This document shows positions 5,816-49,303 of a stretch of 57,801 nucleotides of DNA, piece after piece (position 1 is the first letter of the stretch; every line of letters begins with the position of its first letter). The DNA is taken from the NCBI GenBank assembly GCA_026396805.1, contig JAPLVZ010000002.1, forward strand, positions 1-57,801, given 5' to 3'. This DNA is from Candidatus Falkowiibacteriota bacterium (GTDB lineage Bacteria; Patescibacteriota; Patescibacteriia; Patescibacteriales; UBA12465). A program made the position numbers and the translations under genes. Under the pieces are notes generated by a model. It did not search any database. It worked only from the letters and a program-made list of their open reading frames with translations, and was not told the origin of the DNA.

Positions 5816-6268
5816 ATGATTAACGGAGTGATTATCAGAAAAATAGAAAAATACGAAGACAATCGCGGTTGGCTGGCGGAAATTTTCCGTCGCGACGAAC
5901 TGCATTTCGATATGGCCATGGCTTACGCCAGTCTGACGAAGCCGGGCGTAATCCGCGGTCCGCACGAACATACGGAGCAGAGCGACTGCTTTGTCTTTTT
6001 GGGCCCGGGTTCTTTCCGTTTGTACCTTTGGGACCGCCGCAACGCTTCATCAACCAGGGGCGAGACTTTAGAAATTGAGGCCGGAGCCGATAACCCGAGT
6101 TTGGTTATCGTGCCACCGGGCGTCGTTCACGGCTATAAATGCGTTTCCGCTCTTCCGGCTTTAGTCATTAATTTTCCCGATAAATTATATAAAGGTGAAG
6201 GGAAGAGGGAAGAGATTGATGAAATCCGCTGGGAAACCAGAGAAGATAGCCCTTACAGAATAAAATAA
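5816..6268 (+). CDS. RmlC-like cupin (dTDP-4-dehydrorhamnose 3,5-epimerase-related)
   Basis: 150-residue single-domain cupin of the RmlC/WxcM type. Seen: start IRKIEKYEDNRGWLAEIFR, typical of 3,5-epimerases; metal/substrate histidines in GVIRGPHEHTEQSDCFVF (about 43-60); and the second cupin motif IVPPGVVHGYKC (about 99-110). It is shorter than classical RmlC (about 180). The usual RGLHYQ active-site string is replaced by RGPHEHTEQ, so it may be an isomerase rather than RmlC proper. The HIT gene starts 1 bp after its stop and rmlB follows. Confidence 0.78.
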   Translation: MINGVIIRKIEKYEDNRGWLAEIFRRDELHFDMAMAYASLTKPGVIRGPHEHTEQSDCFVFLGPGSFRLYLWDRRNASSTRGETLEIEAGADNPSLVIVPPGVVHGYKCVSALPALVINFPDKLYKGEGKREEIDEIRWETREDSPYRIK

Positions 6269-6269
6269 T

Positions 6270-6665
6270 ATGTGTATTTTTTGCCAAATAATTAATAATA
6301 AAATCCCCTCCTTTAAGGTTTATGAAAACGATAAGATTTTGGCTATTTTAGATATTCAACCGGTTAATGCCGGCCATACTATCGTGATGAGCAAGAAACA
6401 CTACCCTAATATTGAAGAAGCGGGCGAAGATGATCTCACGGCTATAATTTTAGCGATTAAGAAAATCGGTCATCTTTTGAAAAATAAATTAGGCGTCGCC
6501 GGTTATAACGTTACGGCTAACAATGATCCGGTCGCCGGACAGATTATTCCGCACCTTCATTTTCATGTTATTCCTCGCCGCGAGGGCGACGGCCTGAAAT
6601 TATGGCCGACTTTTGGATATGGTCCGGGCGAGAGAGAAAAGATTTTAAAAAAATTATTGTCTTAA
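6270..6665 (+). CDS. HIT family nucleotide hydrolase/transferase
   Basis: 131 residues with the histidine triad HLHFHVIPR (about 96-104), where the middle His of H-x-H-x-H is the nucleophile on nucleoside phosphates. Other family marks: CIFCQIINNKIPSFKVYE at the N-terminus, a CxxC compatible with zinc, and AGHTIVMSKKHYPN. Resembles the HinT/Hit clade; the physiological substrate cannot be told. Sits inside the sugar-nucleotide operon, 1 bp after the upstream stop and 3 bp before rmlB. Confidence 0.9.
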   Translation: MCIFCQIINNKIPSFKVYENDKILAILDIQPVNAGHTIVMSKKHYPNIEEAGEDDLTAIILAIKKIGHLLKNKLGVAGYNVTANNDPVAGQIIPHLHFHVIPRREGDGLKLWPTFGYGPGEREKILKKLLS

Positions 6666-6668
6666 AAT

Positions 6669-7631
6669 ATGAAACTACTCGTTACCGGCGGCGCCGGCTT
6701 CATCGGTTCTAACTTCATCCATTATTGGCTGAAGAATTATCCTGAAGACAGAATAATCAATCTGGACGCGCTGACTTACGCTGGGAATCTGGATAACCTC
6801 AAGGATTTAGAGGGTCAGGCTAATTATGAATTCGTTAAAGGCGATATCTGTGATGCCGTTTTAGTTAACGATCTGGTCAAAGGCGTTGACTTAATAGTCA
6901 ATTTCGCGGCCGAAAGCCACGTTGACCGCTCCATTAAAAATAGCACCGATTTTATTAAAACGAACGTTGAGGGAACACGCGTCCTGCTGGAAGCCGCGAA
7001 AAATAACGGTAATGTTCGTTTTCATCATATTTCCACCGATGAAGTCTTCGGAGCTTTAGAATTCGGGGCGCTGCCGTTCAATGAAAAGACGCCTTATGAT
7101 CCGCGTTCGCCTTATAGCGCCTCCAAAGCCGCCTCCGATCATCTGGTCCGCGCTTATTATCATACTTATAAATTACCGATCACTATTTCCAATTGCTCCA
7201 ATAACTACGGTCCGTACCAGTATCCGGAAAAGCTGATTCCGCTTTTTATCACTAATCTGATGGCCGGGAAACCGGTTCCGGTTTACGGCGCCGGTGCTAA
7301 TATCCGCGACTGGATTCATGTTGACGACCATAATCGCGGCGTGGATATGATAATTAAGAAAGGCCGTATCGGTGAAACTTATTGCCTGGGCGGACATAAT
7401 GAAAAAACTAATTTGGAAATCACCGGTTTGATCCTAAGCTTGATGGGCAAAGGGAGAGAGATGATTGAATACGTCCCGGATCGCTTAGGCCATGATTTAA
7501 GATACGCGATTGATTTTTCTAAGGCGAAGAAAGAATTAGGCTGGGAGCCGCTCCTATCTTTTGCGGACGGCTTGCGCGCCACCGTCGACTGGTATAAGGT
7601 TAATGTGGCTTGGTGGCAGAAGTTAAAATAA
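6669..7631 (+). CDS. rfbB: dTDP-glucose 4,6-dehydratase
   Basis: Converts dTDP-glucose to dTDP-4-keto-6-deoxyglucose, the entry to rhamnose and other deoxy sugars. Seen in 320 residues: NAD-binding TGGAGFIGSNF (about 6-16), NFAAESHVDRSI, the catalytic Thr-Asp-Glu in HISTDEVFG (about 117-125), YxxxK in YSASKAASDH (about 143-152) and NCSNNYGPYQYPEKLIP. This is typical RmlB/RfbB rather than a general epimerase. Partner genes rmlA and rmlD are not in the window; the RmlC-like gene is two genes upstream. Confidence 0.9.
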   Translation: MKLLVTGGAGFIGSNFIHYWLKNYPEDRIINLDALTYAGNLDNLKDLEGQANYEFVKGDICDAVLVNDLVKGVDLIVNFAAESHVDRSIKNSTDFIKTNVEGTRVLLEAAKNNGNVRFHHISTDEVFGALEFGALPFNEKTPYDPRSPYSASKAASDHLVRAYYHTYKLPITISNCSNNYGPYQYPEKLIPLFITNLMAGKPVPVYGAGANIRDWIHVDDHNRGVDMIIKKGRIGETYCLGGHNEKTNLEITGLILSLMGKGREMIEYVPDRLGHDLRYAIDFSKAKKELGWEPLLSFADGLRATVDWYKVNVAWWQKLK

Positions 7632-40250: not shown

Positions 40251-41264
40251 ATGATCAAACGATTCATAATCTTCATAGTCAGCGGGGTCATTATTTTAGG
40301 GATCGGCATAAGCATCGGTTATTATCGGGCGCATTTTTTGTTATCTACAATGTCTGCCGTTAATACCCAGCCTGCTTATACCGTCGCTCCTGCCATTTTT
40401 AATAGCAATGACGATGCGTTTCCGTTCATAAATCCTACGGTTACCTCAAATTTGGGCAAACATTTTATCATTAACTTTAAGCCGCTCAAAGAACAAATGA
40501 CCGCTATCCAGAAAAAATACCCTCAACATACCTATATTTACTTTTCATATCTTAATAATTCTTCCTGGGTGGGCATAAACGAACGCGATTTATTCGTGTC
40601 GGCCAGTACCATTAAAGTTCCTTTAACCATGGCCGTATTAAAGGCCGAGGAGGATAATAAATTGAAATTGGCAGACAAATATGCGCTGGAAGAATTGGAT
40701 CTGGATGGTAATTTCGGAGAATTGTATCAAGTCGGATCTGATAAAGAATTATCGGTTGAAGAATTAATAAAGATCATGTTGGAGAAGTCGGATAATACGG
40801 CGATGAGAGCCATCATCAATATTTTAAATAAGATCGGAATCAATGATCCTTTTGTCAACGTTTATGAGGCAATGGGATGGGATACCAGCGATACCGACTT
40901 AATACCCGAAATTGGAAAGGCGCCAAATTATCAAGCGATCAATCTCAAAACTTTGTCCAATATGTTCATAGCTCTTTATGATTCAAAGTATATCAATACA
41001 GAAAATTCCAATAGGGTTCTTGAATACTTGGCCAATACGCCATTCAACGATAAAATAGTCGCCGGCGTGCCCAAGGACATACTAGTCGCGCACAAGATCG
41101 GAATTTCTGTGACGGATAATACCTTTTCCGATTGCGGAATCGTTTACGCGCCTAACCGGAATTATATTTTATGCTTGGGTTCAAGCGGCGCTGACGAAGC
41201 GAACGCCGACAAATTCATGGCTGAAATCTCGAAAGTCGTGTATCAGTTTGTGATAAATAACTAG
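40251..41264 (+). CDS. Class A beta-lactamase-like serine hydrolase, membrane-anchored
   Basis: 337 residues. An N-terminal hydrophobic helix (about 5-27) suggests a signal anchor. The penicillin-recognising fold is visible through SxxK in SASTIKVPLTMAV (about 117-129), SDN in EKSDNTAMRAI (about 179-189) and a KTG-like HKIGIS. It could be a true beta-lactamase, but the HKIG change and surface context also fit a peptidoglycan-processing or non-catalytic relative. Not resolvable here. It follows the fibre gene by 45 bp. Confidence 0.8.
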   Translation: MIKRFIIFIVSGVIILGIGISIGYYRAHFLLSTMSAVNTQPAYTVAPAIFNSNDDAFPFINPTVTSNLGKHFIINFKPLKEQMTAIQKKYPQHTYIYFSYLNNSSWVGINERDLFVSASTIKVPLTMAVLKAEEDNKLKLADKYALEELDLDGNFGELYQVGSDKELSVEELIKIMLEKSDNTAMRAIINILNKIGINDPFVNVYEAMGWDTSDTDLIPEIGKAPNYQAINLKTLSNMFIALYDSKYINTENSNRVLEYLANTPFNDKIVAGVPKDILVAHKIGISVTDNTFSDCGIVYAPNRNYILCLGSSGADEANADKFMAEISKVVYQFVINN

Positions 41265-43786: not shown

Positions 43787-45829
43787 ATGCCAAATAGAGC
43801 TATTATCGCTATTTTGGTTTTCTTCACTATTATTATTGTTGTTTCCCGAGCCGAGGCTTTTGACGCCAATTCTTCACACTTCAAATTAAACGCGGCGGCC
43901 ATTGACAGTATCGCGGGTAGCGGCGCTTCGGCGAGTTTTAAGAATACCGGCGCCGGCGGGCAACTCGCCAGCGGTTTGTCTACTAATATCCAAAAAATTT
44001 ATTCCGGCATTCTTTATTGGTTATATAGTTCTAATCACGCCCCGCTGTTTACTATCGGTGACGAACCGCGCGAAGACCCAATTTCTAACAGTGACACGCC
44101 GACGGAAGTAGACGCTAATGTGACGTTTAAGGCTAGGGCCACTGATGCCGAAGGCGACGGTTGGTATTTGGCTATTTGCAAAGGAGAGGGAATTATTCCT
44201 GGGACCAGCGGTACCGTGCCGAGTTGTACTAATGGGACTTGGGCTAAATCCAGCTCTTTTTTTGTTTCTGGCTCGGAAATAACTCTTAACTATAAAGTCA
44301 CAGCTAGCGAGGTAAATGACAATTACGTTTGGTATGCTTACGCCTGTGATAATAACATTAAAGAACCCTTATGTTCCCCGGTTTCTAACAGCGGTACCGG
44401 CGGCGGCAATGGTTCGCCTTTTAATGTTCATGTCGCCGCTCCTCCGGTCGTCATCACGAACCCTACTCAGTCCGTGACAGTGGTGGCTGGTAGTGATGTA
44501 ATTAACCCCACTATTAATATTGACTCCCTAACCACTGATAACGGGACGGCGACCAGCGCGACATTACCAGCCATTACTTTGAATGTCACGACCAGCCTGT
44601 CCACAACTGCAGTTAATGTGGCGATTCCTAGCAACACAGAAATTATGGCGCCAACGGGATGGAATGGAATCATTAATGCTCCTCAAGTAAAACCTAATTC
44701 TAGTGTTACTGTCACACCGGATAGTGGAAAAACTGTCACAATATCTTCTGTCATTGAAATCGGATCCGATGATATAAAATTAACTTTTGATAAGGCGGTG
44801 CGTATTCTTATGCCCGGACAGTCAGGGAAATATGGCGGTTATTATCGAAGCGGCGTTTTTACCAAGATAACCAATACTTGTTCTAGCGACACGCAAACAG
44901 CCGGGAATGCTTTAGGACCAGAAGGTGATTGTAAAATAGACGTCGGCTCAGACATGATTATCTGGACAAAGCATTTTACTAGTTTTGTTACTTATACGCA
45001 GACAACTAATACGGACGGCGGAAGCAGTGGGAGCGGAAGCAGTGGGAGCGGAAGCAGTGGGGGCGGCGGCGCGGCCTCTTTACCGTCTACTGTAACTTTG
45101 TCCGGCCGCGCTTATCCCTTGAGCCAGGTTACTATTTTAAAAGACGGACAGATTGCCGCCACGACTATCGCCGGTCCTGACGCCAGTTTTAAAGTTTCTT
45201 TGGCTATCGCGAGCAGCGGCAATTATATTATCGCTGTTTATGGCGAAGATTCTCAGGGCATCAGATCAAATCTATTTACTTTCCCTATGTCTTTAGCAAC
45301 CGGTTCGTCTTCAACGGTCAATGATATTTTCATCGCCCCGACTATCACGATTGATAAGACAGAAGTCAAGCGCGGCGACACTCTGGTTATTTTTGGACAA
45401 TCATCGCCTAACGCGGAAATGACCATTGAAGTGAATTCCGAAAATAGCCTTTTCTTTAAAACTATCGCGGATAGTAAAGGCGCCTATTTAAGTAATTTTG
45501 ACACCTCGCCATTAGAGGTCGGCCAGCATTTAACGCGGTCGAAAGCCGCCGCGGCCGGCAAGATAAGTCCGGCGAGTAAAACTCTTAGCTTCGCAGTTAA
45601 CGACACTGGTTCTGTCTTAGCTCCGACTACGCCGACCACGGCTAAAATTCTCAAAGGCGATTTAAATAAAGACGGCCGAGTGAATCTGATTGATTTTTCT
45701 ATCGCTGCTTATTGGTATAAGCGTACTTTAAGCACTGCCTCTAGCGCTCTAGAAAAAGAACGTTTGAACGGTGATGGGAAAATCGACTTGATTGATTTCA
45801 GCATCATGGCTTATTATTGGACCGGCTAA
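43787..45829 (+). CDS. Secreted dockerin-domain protein with Ig-like domains
   Basis: About 680 residues from the ATG at 43787, chosen because it opens a signal peptide (MPNRAIIAILVFFTIIIVV, cleavage near AEA); a TTG at 43763 is less likely. Mid-regions are Ig/fibronectin-like (VTFKARATDAEGDGWYLAIC; LSGRAYPLSQVTILKDGQI; KRGDTLVIFGQSSPNAEMTI). A Gly/Ser linker at about 420-436 separates halves. The last 60 residues hold two dockerin repeats: GDLNKDGRVNLIDFSIAAYW and LNGDGKIDLIDFSIMAYYW, each an EF-hand-like calcium loop with helix. No catalytic domain seen. The next two genes encode cohesins. Confidence 0.85.
   Translation: MPNRAIIAILVFFTIIIVVSRAEAFDANSSHFKLNAAAIDSIAGSGASASFKNTGAGGQLASGLSTNIQKIYSGILYWLYSSNHAPLFTIGDEPREDPISNSDTPTEVDANVTFKARATDAEGDGWYLAICKGEGIIPGTSGTVPSCTNGTWAKSSSFFVSGSEITLNYKVTASEVNDNYVWYAYACDNNIKEPLCSPVSNSGTGGGNGSPFNVHVAAPPVVITNPTQSVTVVAGSDVINPTINIDSLTTDNGTATSATLPAITLNVTTSLSTTAVNVAIPSNTEIMAPTGWNGIINAPQVKPNSSVTVTPDSGKTVTISSVIEIGSDDIKLTFDKAVRILMPGQSGKYGGYYRSGVFTKITNTCSSDTQTAGNALGPEGDCKIDVGSDMIIWTKHFTSFVTYTQTTNTDGGSSGSGSSGSGSSGGGGAASLPSTVTLSGRAYPLSQVTILKDGQIAATTIAGPDASFKVSLAIASSGNYIIAVYGEDSQGIRSNLFTFPMSLATGSSSTVNDIFIAPTITIDKTEVKRGDTLVIFGQSSPNAEMTIEVNSENSLFFKTIADSKGAYLSNFDTSPLEVGQHLTRSKAAAAGKISPASKTLSFAVNDTGSVLAPTTPTTAKILKGDLNKDGRVNLIDFSIAAYWYKRTLSTASSALEKERLNGDGKIDLIDFSIMAYYWTG
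45020..45064 (+). repeat. 15-bp tandem repeat encoding a Gly/Ser linker
   Basis: Three units of GGAAGCAGTGGGAGC, the last with one change. Confidence 0.8.
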
Positions 45830-45855
45830 ATTTTATTTAGTACGACCTCGTTAAT

Positions 45856-46740
45856 ATGGTTCCGAAAAAATCTTTGTCCAAAATTATTAATTACTTCGCC
45901 GTCGCTTTAGTGATTGTCGGGTTTTTTAGTGTTGTTAAATCGGTTAAAGCCGTTGCGTTGCGGGTCGACTCCACCACGCGGGCAGTGCCCGTTAGCGGAC
46001 AATTAGCCGCCAATATTTTTTTGGACAATGTTGACACGGCTGTTAACGCCATCGCGGGCGAAATTACTTTTCCGGACGGACTTTTGGAATTACAGACAGT
46101 TAGTGACGGTGATTCTATTATTAACTTTTGGATAGAGCGCCCCCAGGTCGTTAACGGGAAAGTTATTTTTTCCGGAATCATCCCGGGCGGGTATTCCGGG
46201 CCGAGCGGTTCACTTTTTTCGCTTATTTTTAAAGCGAAAACTATCGGGTCGGGTGCGGTGTCTATTAGTCGGGCGCAAGTCTTACTGAATGATGGCAAGG
46301 GTGGGGAAGCAACGACTACGCTGGTGAATTTAGAGTTTCAAAACCTGCCTCAAACCGCCACTACCTCGGCGGTAATTGCCAAGATTGACGATCAGGAGAA
46401 ACCGGAAAATTTTATGCCGATTGTCGCCACCGATTCAGAAATTTTTTTCGGAAAAAAGTTTCTCGTATTCGCTACCCAGGATAAAGGGTCGGGGATTGAT
46501 CATTATGAGGTGCAGGAAGGCGATCGTGCCTGGCAACTGGCAATTAGCCCCTATCTTTTACAGGATCAAAATTTAGATAAAATTATCAGAGTCAAGGCTA
46601 TTGATAAAAATGGTAATACTCTCATCGTCAGCTTGCCGGCGCCCCCCCATGTTTGGTATAATAGTTATTGGTTAATAATAATCTCAATTTTATTATTAGG
46701 ACTCGTATATTTTATCAGCCGACGAGTATGGCGGAAATAG
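45856..46740 (+). CDS. Membrane-anchored cohesin-domain protein
   Basis: 294 residues. Signal helix at about 9-29. A cohesin domain (about 34-165) shows LRVDSTTRAVPVSGQLAANI, NAIAGEITFPDGLLELQTV, SGIIPGGYSGPSGSLFSLI and AQVLLNDGKGGEATT, the beta-sandwich pattern that binds dockerins. A second region (about 195-260) resembles an Ig-like repeat also found in the next protein (GSGIDHYEVQEGDRAWQ). A C-terminal membrane helix (about 269-289) and a basic tail anchor it. Overlaps the next gene by 13 bp. Confidence 0.82.
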   Translation: MVPKKSLSKIINYFAVALVIVGFFSVVKSVKAVALRVDSTTRAVPVSGQLAANIFLDNVDTAVNAIAGEITFPDGLLELQTVSDGDSIINFWIERPQVVNGKVIFSGIIPGGYSGPSGSLFSLIFKAKTIGSGAVSISRAQVLLNDGKGGEATTTLVNLEFQNLPQTATTSAVIAKIDDQEKPENFMPIVATDSEIFFGKKFLVFATQDKGSGIDHYEVQEGDRAWQLAISPYLLQDQNLDKIIRVKAIDKNGNTLIVSLPAPPHVWYNSYWLIIISILLLGLVYFISRRVWRK

Positions 46741-48548
46741 TCGTAAAACCGACGTCGAAATATCAGTTAAACAGACGCCTAGTTTTAAGTGTCGGGTTGG
46801 CATTTATATTTAGCGTCTTTTTGGCGTTGCCGGCGACAGCGCTGGCGGCGTCGCTGTATTTTTCTCCCTCGGCCGGCGCTTATGAAGTGGGGAAAACTTT
46901 TAGCGTCAGCGTCTATGTTTCCAGCGCCGATCAAGCGATGAACGCCGCCTCGGGTGCCATTTCTTTCCCTAAGGATAAGTTAGAGATCACGGCTCTTTCC
47001 AAGAGTGGTTCGATTTTTTCTCTTTGGGTGCAAGAGCCGGTGTTTTCCAATAGTACCGGCGTCATTAATTTTGAAGGCATTGTTTTGAATCCTGGTTTTA
47101 GCGGTTCCGGCGGAAAAATCATGACAATTAATTTTAAAGTGAAAGCAGCCGGTCAGGCGGGCTTAAATTTTTCTTCCGGTTCAATTTTGGCCAATGACGG
47201 AGCGGGTACCAATATTTTGAAAAGCCTGGGCTCGGCAAGTTATAAGTTATCGGCCGCCGCCAGTCCGGGAACGCCGGTGGGGCAAGTGACCGAAGCAAAA
47301 CCAGCCGTAGCCGGGGAAGTTCCGGCGCCAGCGGCTCCGCCGGCAATTGCGGGCGTTCCGGCGGCTCCACAAATATTATCCTCCACCCATCCCGACCCCA
47401 ACGCTTGGTATAATAACAATAACCCTAAATTTACCTGGAAAGTACCGGCAGGTATAACAACGGTTCGGGTTCTCTATGATAAATATCCGGTTTCCAATCC
47501 CACTGTTGTCTATCAGCCACCCATTAGCGGCAAGGACTTAGTTGGATTGTCAGACGGCACCTATTATTTCCACGCCCAATTCCGTAACGCCAAAGGCTGG
47601 GGGGCGGTCAGTCATTTCCGTTTTCAGATCGATACCGTCCCGCCCGTCGCCTTTACCGTTAAATTTCCGTCTCAACAGAATACTAATGATCCGCGTCCGG
47701 TCGTTTTATTCGATACTACCGACGAATTATCCGGCATTGATTATTATGAAATTAAGGCGGGCGACGGGCAAGCTTTTAAAGTGACGCCGGGCGAGATAGT
47801 GGGGTCCAATCCTTATGTCCTGCCGGTTCAGAAACCGGGACAGCATTCCATAATCGTCAAAGCGGTAGACAAGGCGGGAAATTCCGCCACCGCCTCGGAA
47901 ATATTTAGCGTGACCGCTTTAGATGCTCCGGTTTTGGACTATTATCCCAACGATTTGACTGAAGGCGATGTCTTAAAGGTTCCCGGCAAGACTTACCCCG
48001 AATCCAACGTTACGATTTTTGTCAGAGATGAATTAGGTTTGGTTTCCAGCGATACGATTATCAGCAACTCCCAAGGCAACTTTACCATGATCTGGTCTAA
48101 GCGGTTATTGGTCGGTACCTATAGTCTCTGGGCGCAAGTAACGAATGTAGACGGCGCCAAGAGTGCTATTACCACACCCAGCACTTTTGTCGTCAGACAG
48201 CCGGTGTTGGATAAAATAGCTAACCTAGTTTTAAACTATCTCTCCGTCTTTATGCTGTTAGTTTTCTTTATTCTCGGTTTGATTTTCTTCGCTTGGTATG
48301 GCTGGCATAAGTTCTTATTGCTGAAAAAGAAGATTAAGAAGGAAGCCAAAGGAGTAGAAAAGGATTTCTTGGATATTTTTGATCATTTACAGCAAGATAT
48401 TGAACAGCAGATACGGCTGATTGAGAAAGCGAAAAACCGCCGGGAGTTAACCACGGAAGAAAAGCGTATCATTACTATCTTAAGACGCGACTTGGCCGTC
48501 GCTAAAAAAGTTTTAAGCGAAGAGATGAAAAATATCGCCACGAAATAA
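46728..48548 (+). CDS. Membrane-anchored cohesin-domain protein with cytoplasmic coiled coil
   Basis: About 606 residues from the ATG at 46728, chosen over an upstream in-frame start because it gives a signal peptide ending ALAA. Cohesin domain (about 38-185): LYFSPSAGAYEVGKTFSVS, NAASGAISFPKDKLEITAL, GIVLNPGFSGSGGKIMTI and GSILANDGAGTN. A Pro/Ala-rich linker, then Ig-like domains (TVPPVAFTVKFPSQQN, DELSGIDYYEIKAGDG, YPESNVTIFVRDELGL). A membrane helix near 510-530 is followed by a long charged coiled coil (KKKIKKEAKGVEKDFLDIF and on) to the C-terminus, on the cytoplasmic side. It has two more Ig-like domains than its neighbour. A terminator follows. Confidence 0.84.
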   Translation: MAEIVVKPTSKYQLNRRLVLSVGLAFIFSVFLALPATALAASLYFSPSAGAYEVGKTFSVSVYVSSADQAMNAASGAISFPKDKLEITALSKSGSIFSLWVQEPVFSNSTGVINFEGIVLNPGFSGSGGKIMTINFKVKAAGQAGLNFSSGSILANDGAGTNILKSLGSASYKLSAAASPGTPVGQVTEAKPAVAGEVPAPAAPPAIAGVPAAPQILSSTHPDPNAWYNNNNPKFTWKVPAGITTVRVLYDKYPVSNPTVVYQPPISGKDLVGLSDGTYYFHAQFRNAKGWGAVSHFRFQIDTVPPVAFTVKFPSQQNTNDPRPVVLFDTTDELSGIDYYEIKAGDGQAFKVTPGEIVGSNPYVLPVQKPGQHSIIVKAVDKAGNSATASEIFSVTALDAPVLDYYPNDLTEGDVLKVPGKTYPESNVTIFVRDELGLVSSDTIISNSQGNFTMIWSKRLLVGTYSLWAQVTNVDGAKSAITTPSTFVVRQPVLDKIANLVLNYLSVFMLLVFFILGLIFFAWYGWHKFLLLKKKIKKEAKGVEKDFLDIFDHLQQDIEQQIRLIEKAKNRRELTTEEKRIITILRRDLAVAKKVLSEEMKNIATK

Positions 48549-48775: not shown

Positions 48776-49303
48776 ATGAAAAAACTAGTCGTATTTTTAT
48801 TACCGCTCATGCTAATTATTAGCTGTGAAAAAGAAAACACAGCCCAGGGTTTTAAGACCTTACCAATTTTGGATCTAAGGGTAAATAATAATTTATTACC
48901 ATCACTATGGTTAACCGATTATCCTGAAGAAATCGTACCCCTCTCCGGCACTAATCCCGTTCGATATGATACCTTGGGTCGTACGAAAGTGTTTTTTAAC
49001 AAAGATTTAATCTTTGATTATCAATGGGAATTTGGGTATCAGTCGCCAATTCATCGAAAATCCAAAGTCTTATTTTCAGCTACTGAAAAAACTGAAGTGG
49101 TATTTATTAGCCGTACAGACGTATTTTTTACCATGATGGCTATAATAAGCAACGGGTCACTGATAAAAAAAATCGATTTTTCAACAGTCAATATTAAAAA
49201 AGTTGAGATCGATGAAATAAATAAACAATTAAGGGTTACCAGCAATAAAGGCTGGACCAGAACTGGCGAATTGCCGGATGATATAACAGTTATTAACTAT
49301 TAA
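48776..49303 (+). CDS. Putative lipoprotein, unknown function
   Basis: 175 residues. The N-terminus MKKLVVFLLPLMLIISCEKEN carries a lipobox-like LIISC with Cys at about 17, so it is probably a lipid-anchored or exported protein. The rest has a beta-rich look (LDLRVNNNLLPSLWLTDY, YQSPIHRKSKVLF, KVEIDEINKQLRVTSNKGW) and matches nothing I recognise. AT-rich, with codon use unlike the neighbours, its own promoter, a boxA-like motif and a leader hairpin, so possibly acquired. The style recalls Bacteroidetes lipoproteins; that is only an impression. Confidence 0.6.
   Translation: MKKLVVFLLPLMLIISCEKENTAQGFKTLPILDLRVNNNLLPSLWLTDYPEEIVPLSGTNPVRYDTLGRTKVFFNKDLIFDYQWEFGYQSPIHRKSKVLFSATEKTEVVFISRTDVFFTMMAIISNGSLIKKIDFSTVNIKKVEIDEINKQLRVTSNKGWTRTGELPDDITVINY

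Follow-up and report, generated by a model that had tools for sequence, protein, structure and literature searches.

Cohesin and dockerin proteins have been described outside cellulosomes in both bacteria and archaea (Peer et al. 2009, as cited in PMC9012536). For archaeal cohesin-dockerin pairs, binding has been demonstrated in work cited in PMC9012536, and the pair of Archaeoglobus fulgidus was used in PMC9705933. In anaerobic methanotrophic (ANME) archaea, attachment to the surface has been proposed for dockerin/cohesin proteins (PMC9012536), and a giant open reading frame (ORF) with nine dockerins is known from Omnitrophota (PMC10066038). The present analysis concerns a stretch of 57,801 nucleotides (the window) from Candidatus Falkowiibacteriota bacterium, a member of the Patescibacteria (contig JAPLVZ010000002.1 of assembly GCA_026396805.1). 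It comes from one contig of an 828-kb genome, and the bacterium is tiny and probably host-dependent. Three adjacent genes in the window, doc, coh1 and coh2, encode one dockerin protein and two cohesin proteins. In all likelihood, they form a compact, non-cellulosomal display module in which a secreted protein of variable function is docked, by its dockerin end, onto cohesins anchored in the membrane.

Little has been described of how Patescibacteria attach to hosts or to their environment. The module gives named candidates for surface contact, namely exchangeable secreted heads, including proteins of ~6,400 residues, that would be mounted on membrane cohesins. No paper describing a cohesin-dockerin system of Patescibacteria was found in the open literature, most subscription papers being outside the search. 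The three-gene kit recurs in many relatives, where the cargo differs greatly, and it therefore seems to be a widespread and apparently undescribed way of holding large proteins on the cell surface.

Conservation of the three-gene order

The genes lie head to tail on the plus strand in the order doc, coh1, coh2, with a gap of 26 bp followed by a 13-bp overlap. An ORF check found the coordinates and both spacings given by the first-pass annotation to be correct. That annotation had also proposed that cohesin and dockerin profile searches across genomes of the candidate phyla radiation might retrieve the same gene order. It does recur across Patescibacteria, so the trio is not a product of chance.

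Within the family of the bacterium (39 genomes), only five members, all of its genus, carry the dockerin, and the same five are the only ones with the cohesin pair; a sixth genome (G022) gave a partial match to the immunoglobulin-like (Ig-like) region of coh2 only. Cohesins of this family occur in 37 of the 111 genomes of the order, and all 37 carry a dockerin as well. Two further dockerin calls in the order, with E of about 0.007, come without these cohesins. With the independent Pfam model PF00963, 33 of these 111 genomes gave a cohesin match above the cut-off. A phylum sample of 380 genomes gave 87 with cohesin, 121 with dockerin and 70 with both (Fisher p=2.7e-27, relatedness not being corrected for), and 44 of the 53 strong dockerin matches examined in this sample are followed on the same strand by a cohesin no more than 2.5 kb downstream. 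Nearly all of 61 dockerin proteins are encoded within about two genes upstream of a cohesin gene.

An independent named collection was searched with coh2, which makes the presence of coh2 a matter of construction and that of doc and coh1 not. Among 20 loci of Patescibacteria type, one of them from a probably misbinned record with the title Methylomirabilis, 18 have the order doc-coh1-coh2 and the other two are cut off on the doc side. The order was found there in Parcubacteria and in one Microgenomates bacterium.

Two module types were distinguished, doc-coh1-coh2 and doc-HSP20-coh2 (type B), the latter lacking coh1, which suggests that coh2 alone can suffice. The nearest neighbour belongs to the same module type for 46 of 48 doc proteins and equally for 46 of 48 coh2 proteins, and the modules are thus inherited as units. 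Mirror-tree correlations of 0.73-0.84 were discarded as evidence of binding, as they are explained by shared phylogeny.

Variants of the locus were also observed. In type B, a small heat-shock gene of the HSP20 family stands between doc and coh2 (L111:5648-6181, L109:4569-5036, L120:5078-5515; recognised by Pfam in three). One genome (G096) combines an N-terminal cohesin and a C-terminal dockerin in a single protein (L113:4174-6219), which is followed by a second cohesin protein (6242-7441), and this pair is possibly chain-forming. In other Parcubacteria, doc is preceded by two more surface genes (L129:4467-5999, L131:1069-2805, L105:8325-9500), neither of which was seen in the window. One encodes a small beta-rich secreted protein, and the other a protein with a C-terminal transmembrane helix and a weak likeness to a WxL-interacting peptidoglycan-binding domain (5/11 members, best E=0.0021).

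Dockerin and cohesin domains

The dockerin identity of doc, already proposed from the sequence, stood up to profile searches. Residues 623-675 match Dockerin_1 (PF00404) with E=2.2e-6 and 28.2 bits, above the curated cut-off of 22.9; in a PF00404 search of the own genome, the domain scored 31.6 bits. A profile of it matched dockerins of the PDB with E down to 2.4e-8, and a Big_6 domain of doc scored 42.3 bits. The genome holds exactly one dockerin above the cut-off, that of doc. A second, weak match (C14, 15.4 bits), which sits in a protein judged FG-GAP-like by eye, was rejected. As the first-pass annotation had it, no glycosidase is fused to doc, and Pfam revealed no enzyme domain in it.

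That annotation had also described two dockerin loops. The first, DLNKDGRVNLID, is canonical and fits the pattern D1, N3, D5, D12, but the second, RLNGDGKIDLID, carries Arg in place of Asp at position 1. In 57 dockerins with two scorable loops, position 1 of loop 2 is D or N in 46 and another residue in 11, including Arg in six. Owing to this substitution, calcium binding by loop 2 of doc may be weak or absent. The two loops closely repeat each other and in this resemble the loops of dockerins that have two binding faces.

The position of the dockerin is strictly C-terminal: in the 61 dockerin proteins, it lies 0-2 residues from the end, and the commonest ending is ...WTG. Alignments of doc with most other dockerin proteins start at about residue 400-420 and are confined to the Ig-Ig-dockerin part (29-61% identity for the two Ig-like domains), which indicates that the head is exchangeable. 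Other heads include fibronectin-type-III repeats and TIG domains. In a relative of the same genus, a single 977-kb contig contains a stop-to-stop frame of 6,440 codons that has a signal peptide close to its beginning and ends in a dockerin, and this fibronectin-type-III protein of ~6,440 residues sits directly before the cohesin pair. Residues 83-270 of the doc head share 35% identity over 201 aa with a separate secreted protein that is encoded upstream of doc in other modules (L089). This likeness hints at gene fusion and, by it, at a functional link.

Both cohesin proteins share one plan, with an N-terminal hydrophobic signal segment and a single C-terminal transmembrane helix by hydropathy; coh1 has just one Ig-like domain and a short tail. 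The signal peptide, cohesin and membrane helix that had been assigned to each of them agree with hydropathy, domain and fold data, and a surface location of the trio is likewise supported. The expected match to the Pfam models held for doc and, barely, for coh2. The latter reaches 25.2 bits with PF00963 (E=2.1e-5, cut-off 24.1), together with 39.8 bits for Big_13. No Pfam match at all, PF00963 included, was obtained for coh1. Its cohesin domain nevertheless shares 33% identity over 110 aa with that of coh2 (E=8e-17), and coh1 scores 163.7 bits with a profile of its own family, which includes coh1 itself. No search of PDB sequences, whether with single cohesin proteins or with the cohesin profiles A1 and A8, yielded a significant match to a cohesin. 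A contig scan seeded with coh1 found no match, the coh2-seeded scan succeeded, and alignment A1 contains no stretch conserved enough to seed a scan.

The cohesin identity of coh1 was settled only by comparison of folds. In a patescibacterial relative (L139), the dockerin and coh1 genes are in frame with one stop codon between them and were modelled as a fused chain. The model has a mean predicted local distance difference test (pLDDT) score of 87.8 and a predicted template modelling score (pTM) of 0.78; the cohesin part lies mostly at 95-98, and both domains are well predicted. Of the 50 best matches to this coh1 ortholog in the PDB, almost all are cohesins. By target-normalised TM-score, the closest are 2vo8 of C. 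perfringens (0.81) and 2xdh of A. fulgidus (0.80), both non-cellulosomal. On the predicted structure, the coh1 family is one that adopts the cohesin fold. The AlphaFold2 model of coh2 has a mean pLDDT of 83, and its whole-chain fold search returned Ig and fibronectin-type-III arrays with low TM-scores, which is uninformative on the cohesin domain. Since Ig arrays dominated this search, the cohesin of coh2 rests on PF00963 and on homology to coh1. The cohesin identities first read from the sequence are thus retained, that of coh2 by PF00963 and that of coh1 by homology to coh2 and the fold of the ortholog. As a divergent subfamily of this kind is missed by standard profiles, such cohesin-dockerin systems are probably under-counted.

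Proposed assembly at the cell surface and its alternatives

The proposed mechanism can be outlined as follows. The doc protein would be exported, and its Ig-Ig-dockerin cassette would bind, presumably in a calcium-dependent manner, to the cohesin domains of coh1 and coh2. These would be held in the cytoplasmic membrane by their single C-terminal helices and raised above it by Ig-like stalks, of one domain in coh1 and three in coh2. The variable head would then point outward and might do a species-specific job, such as adhesion, matrix formation, or contact with a surface or with other cells; in some relatives, this head would be a fibronectin-type-III protein of giant size. A probable role of the helical tail of coh2 is to keep the complex together or to link it to a cytoplasmic component.

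That the neighbours hold the dockerin protein at the surface, as first suggested from the gene arrangement, is supported by the conserved gene order, the exact co-occurrence within the order, the strictly C-terminal dockerin and, indirectly, the fused model. The pTM of that model is above the expectation for independently placed domains and suggests a defined dockerin-cohesin arrangement. The first-pass annotation had seen a scaffold among the partners. This role was rejected, as the cohesins are single; with one cohesin and its own membrane helix each, both coh1 and coh2 look like anchors.

Several points weigh against display by this module. The fused model tethers its domains artificially, with the stop codon read through and the signal peptide serving as a linker, and the only cohesin that it represents is the coh1 of a relative. 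The second calcium loop of the doc protein in the window lacks its position-1 aspartate. In the phylum sample, no dockerin was detected in 17 of the 87 cohesin genomes and no cohesin in 51 dockerin genomes (weak matches included). Genomes with one partner only imply that other uses of cohesin and dockerin domains exist.

The conserved tail of coh2 also allows a different reading, in which the module is a receptor and binding of, or pulling on, the dockerin protein is relayed inward, as the first-pass annotation had inferred for its second anchor. The tail is conserved across Parcubacteria (alignment A6) and confidently helical in the model, but it fits oligomerisation or cytoplasmic tethering equally well. 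With no signalling domain among the Pfam or NCBIfam matches and no adjacent regulator noted, we regard a receptor as unlikely. Cohesin-dockerin pairs can join proteins of different origin. The cohesins of one cell might take dockerin proteins from another cell or from the environment and so serve aggregation instead of self-display, and fibronectin-type-III and TIG repeats do occur among the heads. The dockerin and cohesin genes, however, are direct neighbours and are inherited together as module types, an arrangement that speaks for assembly in a single cell and makes such bridging very improbable. Least credible is the reading in which the dockerin would be no partner of these cohesins but a C-terminal cap stabilised by calcium, its neighbours being unrelated Ig-type surface proteins: Pfam did miss the cohesin of coh1, but the match of its fold to PDB cohesins, the exact co-occurrence in the order and the 33 genomes of the order with PF00963 above cut-off all speak against it.

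It is more probable than not that a conserved plug-and-socket system is used throughout the Patescibacteria. In it, a standard C-terminal Ig-Ig-dockerin or linker-dockerin cassette, with exchangeable heads ranging from short to >6,000 residues, would plug into two membrane cohesins that form a fixed pair, and one of these two is a member of a divergent cohesin family invisible to current profiles. If this is true, it would be a general means of mounting adhesins or contact fibres.

Features, neighbouring genes and known systems

Table 1. Coordinates of the genes and domains of the module, numbered from the first nucleotide of the window.
Feature	Position	Strand	Basis
doc, secreted, 680 aa, C-terminal dockerin	43787..45829	+	ORF from ATG; N-terminal hydrophobic signal segment; PF00404, Big_6
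doc variable head, residues 25-410	43859..45016	+	most dockerin homologues align only from ~400-420
doc two Ig-like domains of docking cassette, residues 411-620	45017..45646	+	Big_6 match; homologue alignment
doc dockerin type I, last ~59 residues, end -YYWTG	45650..45826	+	PF00404; PDB dockerins by profile
doc calcium loop 1, DLNKDGRVNLID, canonical	45659..45694	+	sequence; position-wise counts, 57 dockerins
doc calcium loop 2, RLNGDGKIDLID, with Arg for Asp at position 1	45761..45796	+	sequence; counts over 57 dockerins
coh1, membrane-anchored, 294 aa: signal segment, cohesin, Ig-like, C-terminal transmembrane helix	45856..46740	+	ORF; homology to coh2
coh1 cohesin domain	45952..46341	+	alignment A1; fold of ortholog L139 coh1 vs PDB cohesins
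coh1 C-terminal transmembrane helix	46651..46707	+	hydropathy
coh2, membrane-anchored, 606 aa: signal segment, cohesin, three Ig-like, transmembrane helix, helical cytoplasmic tail	46728..48548	+	ORF from ATG; PF00963; Big_13; AlphaFold2
coh2 cohesin domain	46848..47246	+	PF00963; model strands E41-46 to E169-175, mean pLDDT mostly >80
coh2 three Ig-like domains	47409..48197	+	Big_13; strand pattern of model
coh2 transmembrane helix	48240..48296	+	hydropathy; continuous helix H493-571
coh2 conserved cytoplasmic helical tail, consensus ..KRxLTxEExKI..QLKKDLDxAEK..	48297..48545	+	alignment A6; helices H493-571, H576-605

Upstream of the module, the window encodes a class A beta-lactamase-like protein (40251-41264; Beta-lactamase2, 127.7 bits). 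Just after coh2 lies a lipoprotein-like gene (48776-49303) with a guanine + cytosine content of ~0.32 vs 0.45. Its weak relatives are scattered over 5 other genomes of the order, and the gene has the look of a recent acquisition. In another member of the genus (G030), the position directly downstream of coh2 is taken by a protein that resembles GH16 glucanases and bears both cadherin-like domains and a type IX sorting tail (L019:5146-6807). This gene is absent at that spot in G029, and the flank is the same. The Por_Secre_tail domain (PF18962), a C-terminal sorting tail typical of the type IX secretion system of Bacteroidota, was found in 18 of the 39 family genomes (e.g., L152, G029:C1:461102-461278, G030:C5:20606-20800), one of them a single-contig genome. 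A search for SprA_N gave no match, but neither did its controls. The proteins with this tail were possibly acquired from Bacteroidota partners, or a binning error may be present in some genomes.

Cellulosomes of Clostridia share with the module the dockerin type I and cohesin folds, a dockerin with predicted calcium loops and, probably, surface anchoring. Unlike them, this genome has no multi-cohesin scaffoldin and no dockerin-bearing glycosidase. Membership in a cellulosome was rejected, as the genome has two cohesins, one per protein, and its sole above-cut-off dockerin comes without an enzyme domain. The animal/holozoan TMEM132 proteins resemble coh2 in architecture only, with a cohesin, Ig-like domains and one transmembrane helix, and have no known dockerin partner (PMC6030884). 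The Omnitrophota giant, a proposed adhesin, is likewise a dockerin-bearing surface protein of giant size from a bacterium that is very small (PMC10066038); it has many dockerins and no described cohesin partner, whereas here a single C-terminal dockerin is found with cohesins adjoining. In ANME archaea, scaffoldin-like proteins bear up to five cohesins, compared with one per protein here, and dockerins are found on ABC-transporter binding proteins and S-layer proteins (PMC9012536). The module belongs with the non-cellulosomal systems. Like these, the genome combines single cohesins and dockerin modules and has no scaffoldin, cellulases or other cellulosomal enzymes, and the non-cellulosomal 2xdh and 2vo8 are the best fold matches of the coh1 ortholog by target-normalised TM-score. 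Unlike these, the module is a fixed three-gene unit, conserved over many families, with two unequal membrane cohesins and an exchangeable head. It would thereby extend the non-cellulosomal use of the cohesin-dockerin bond to a whole lineage.

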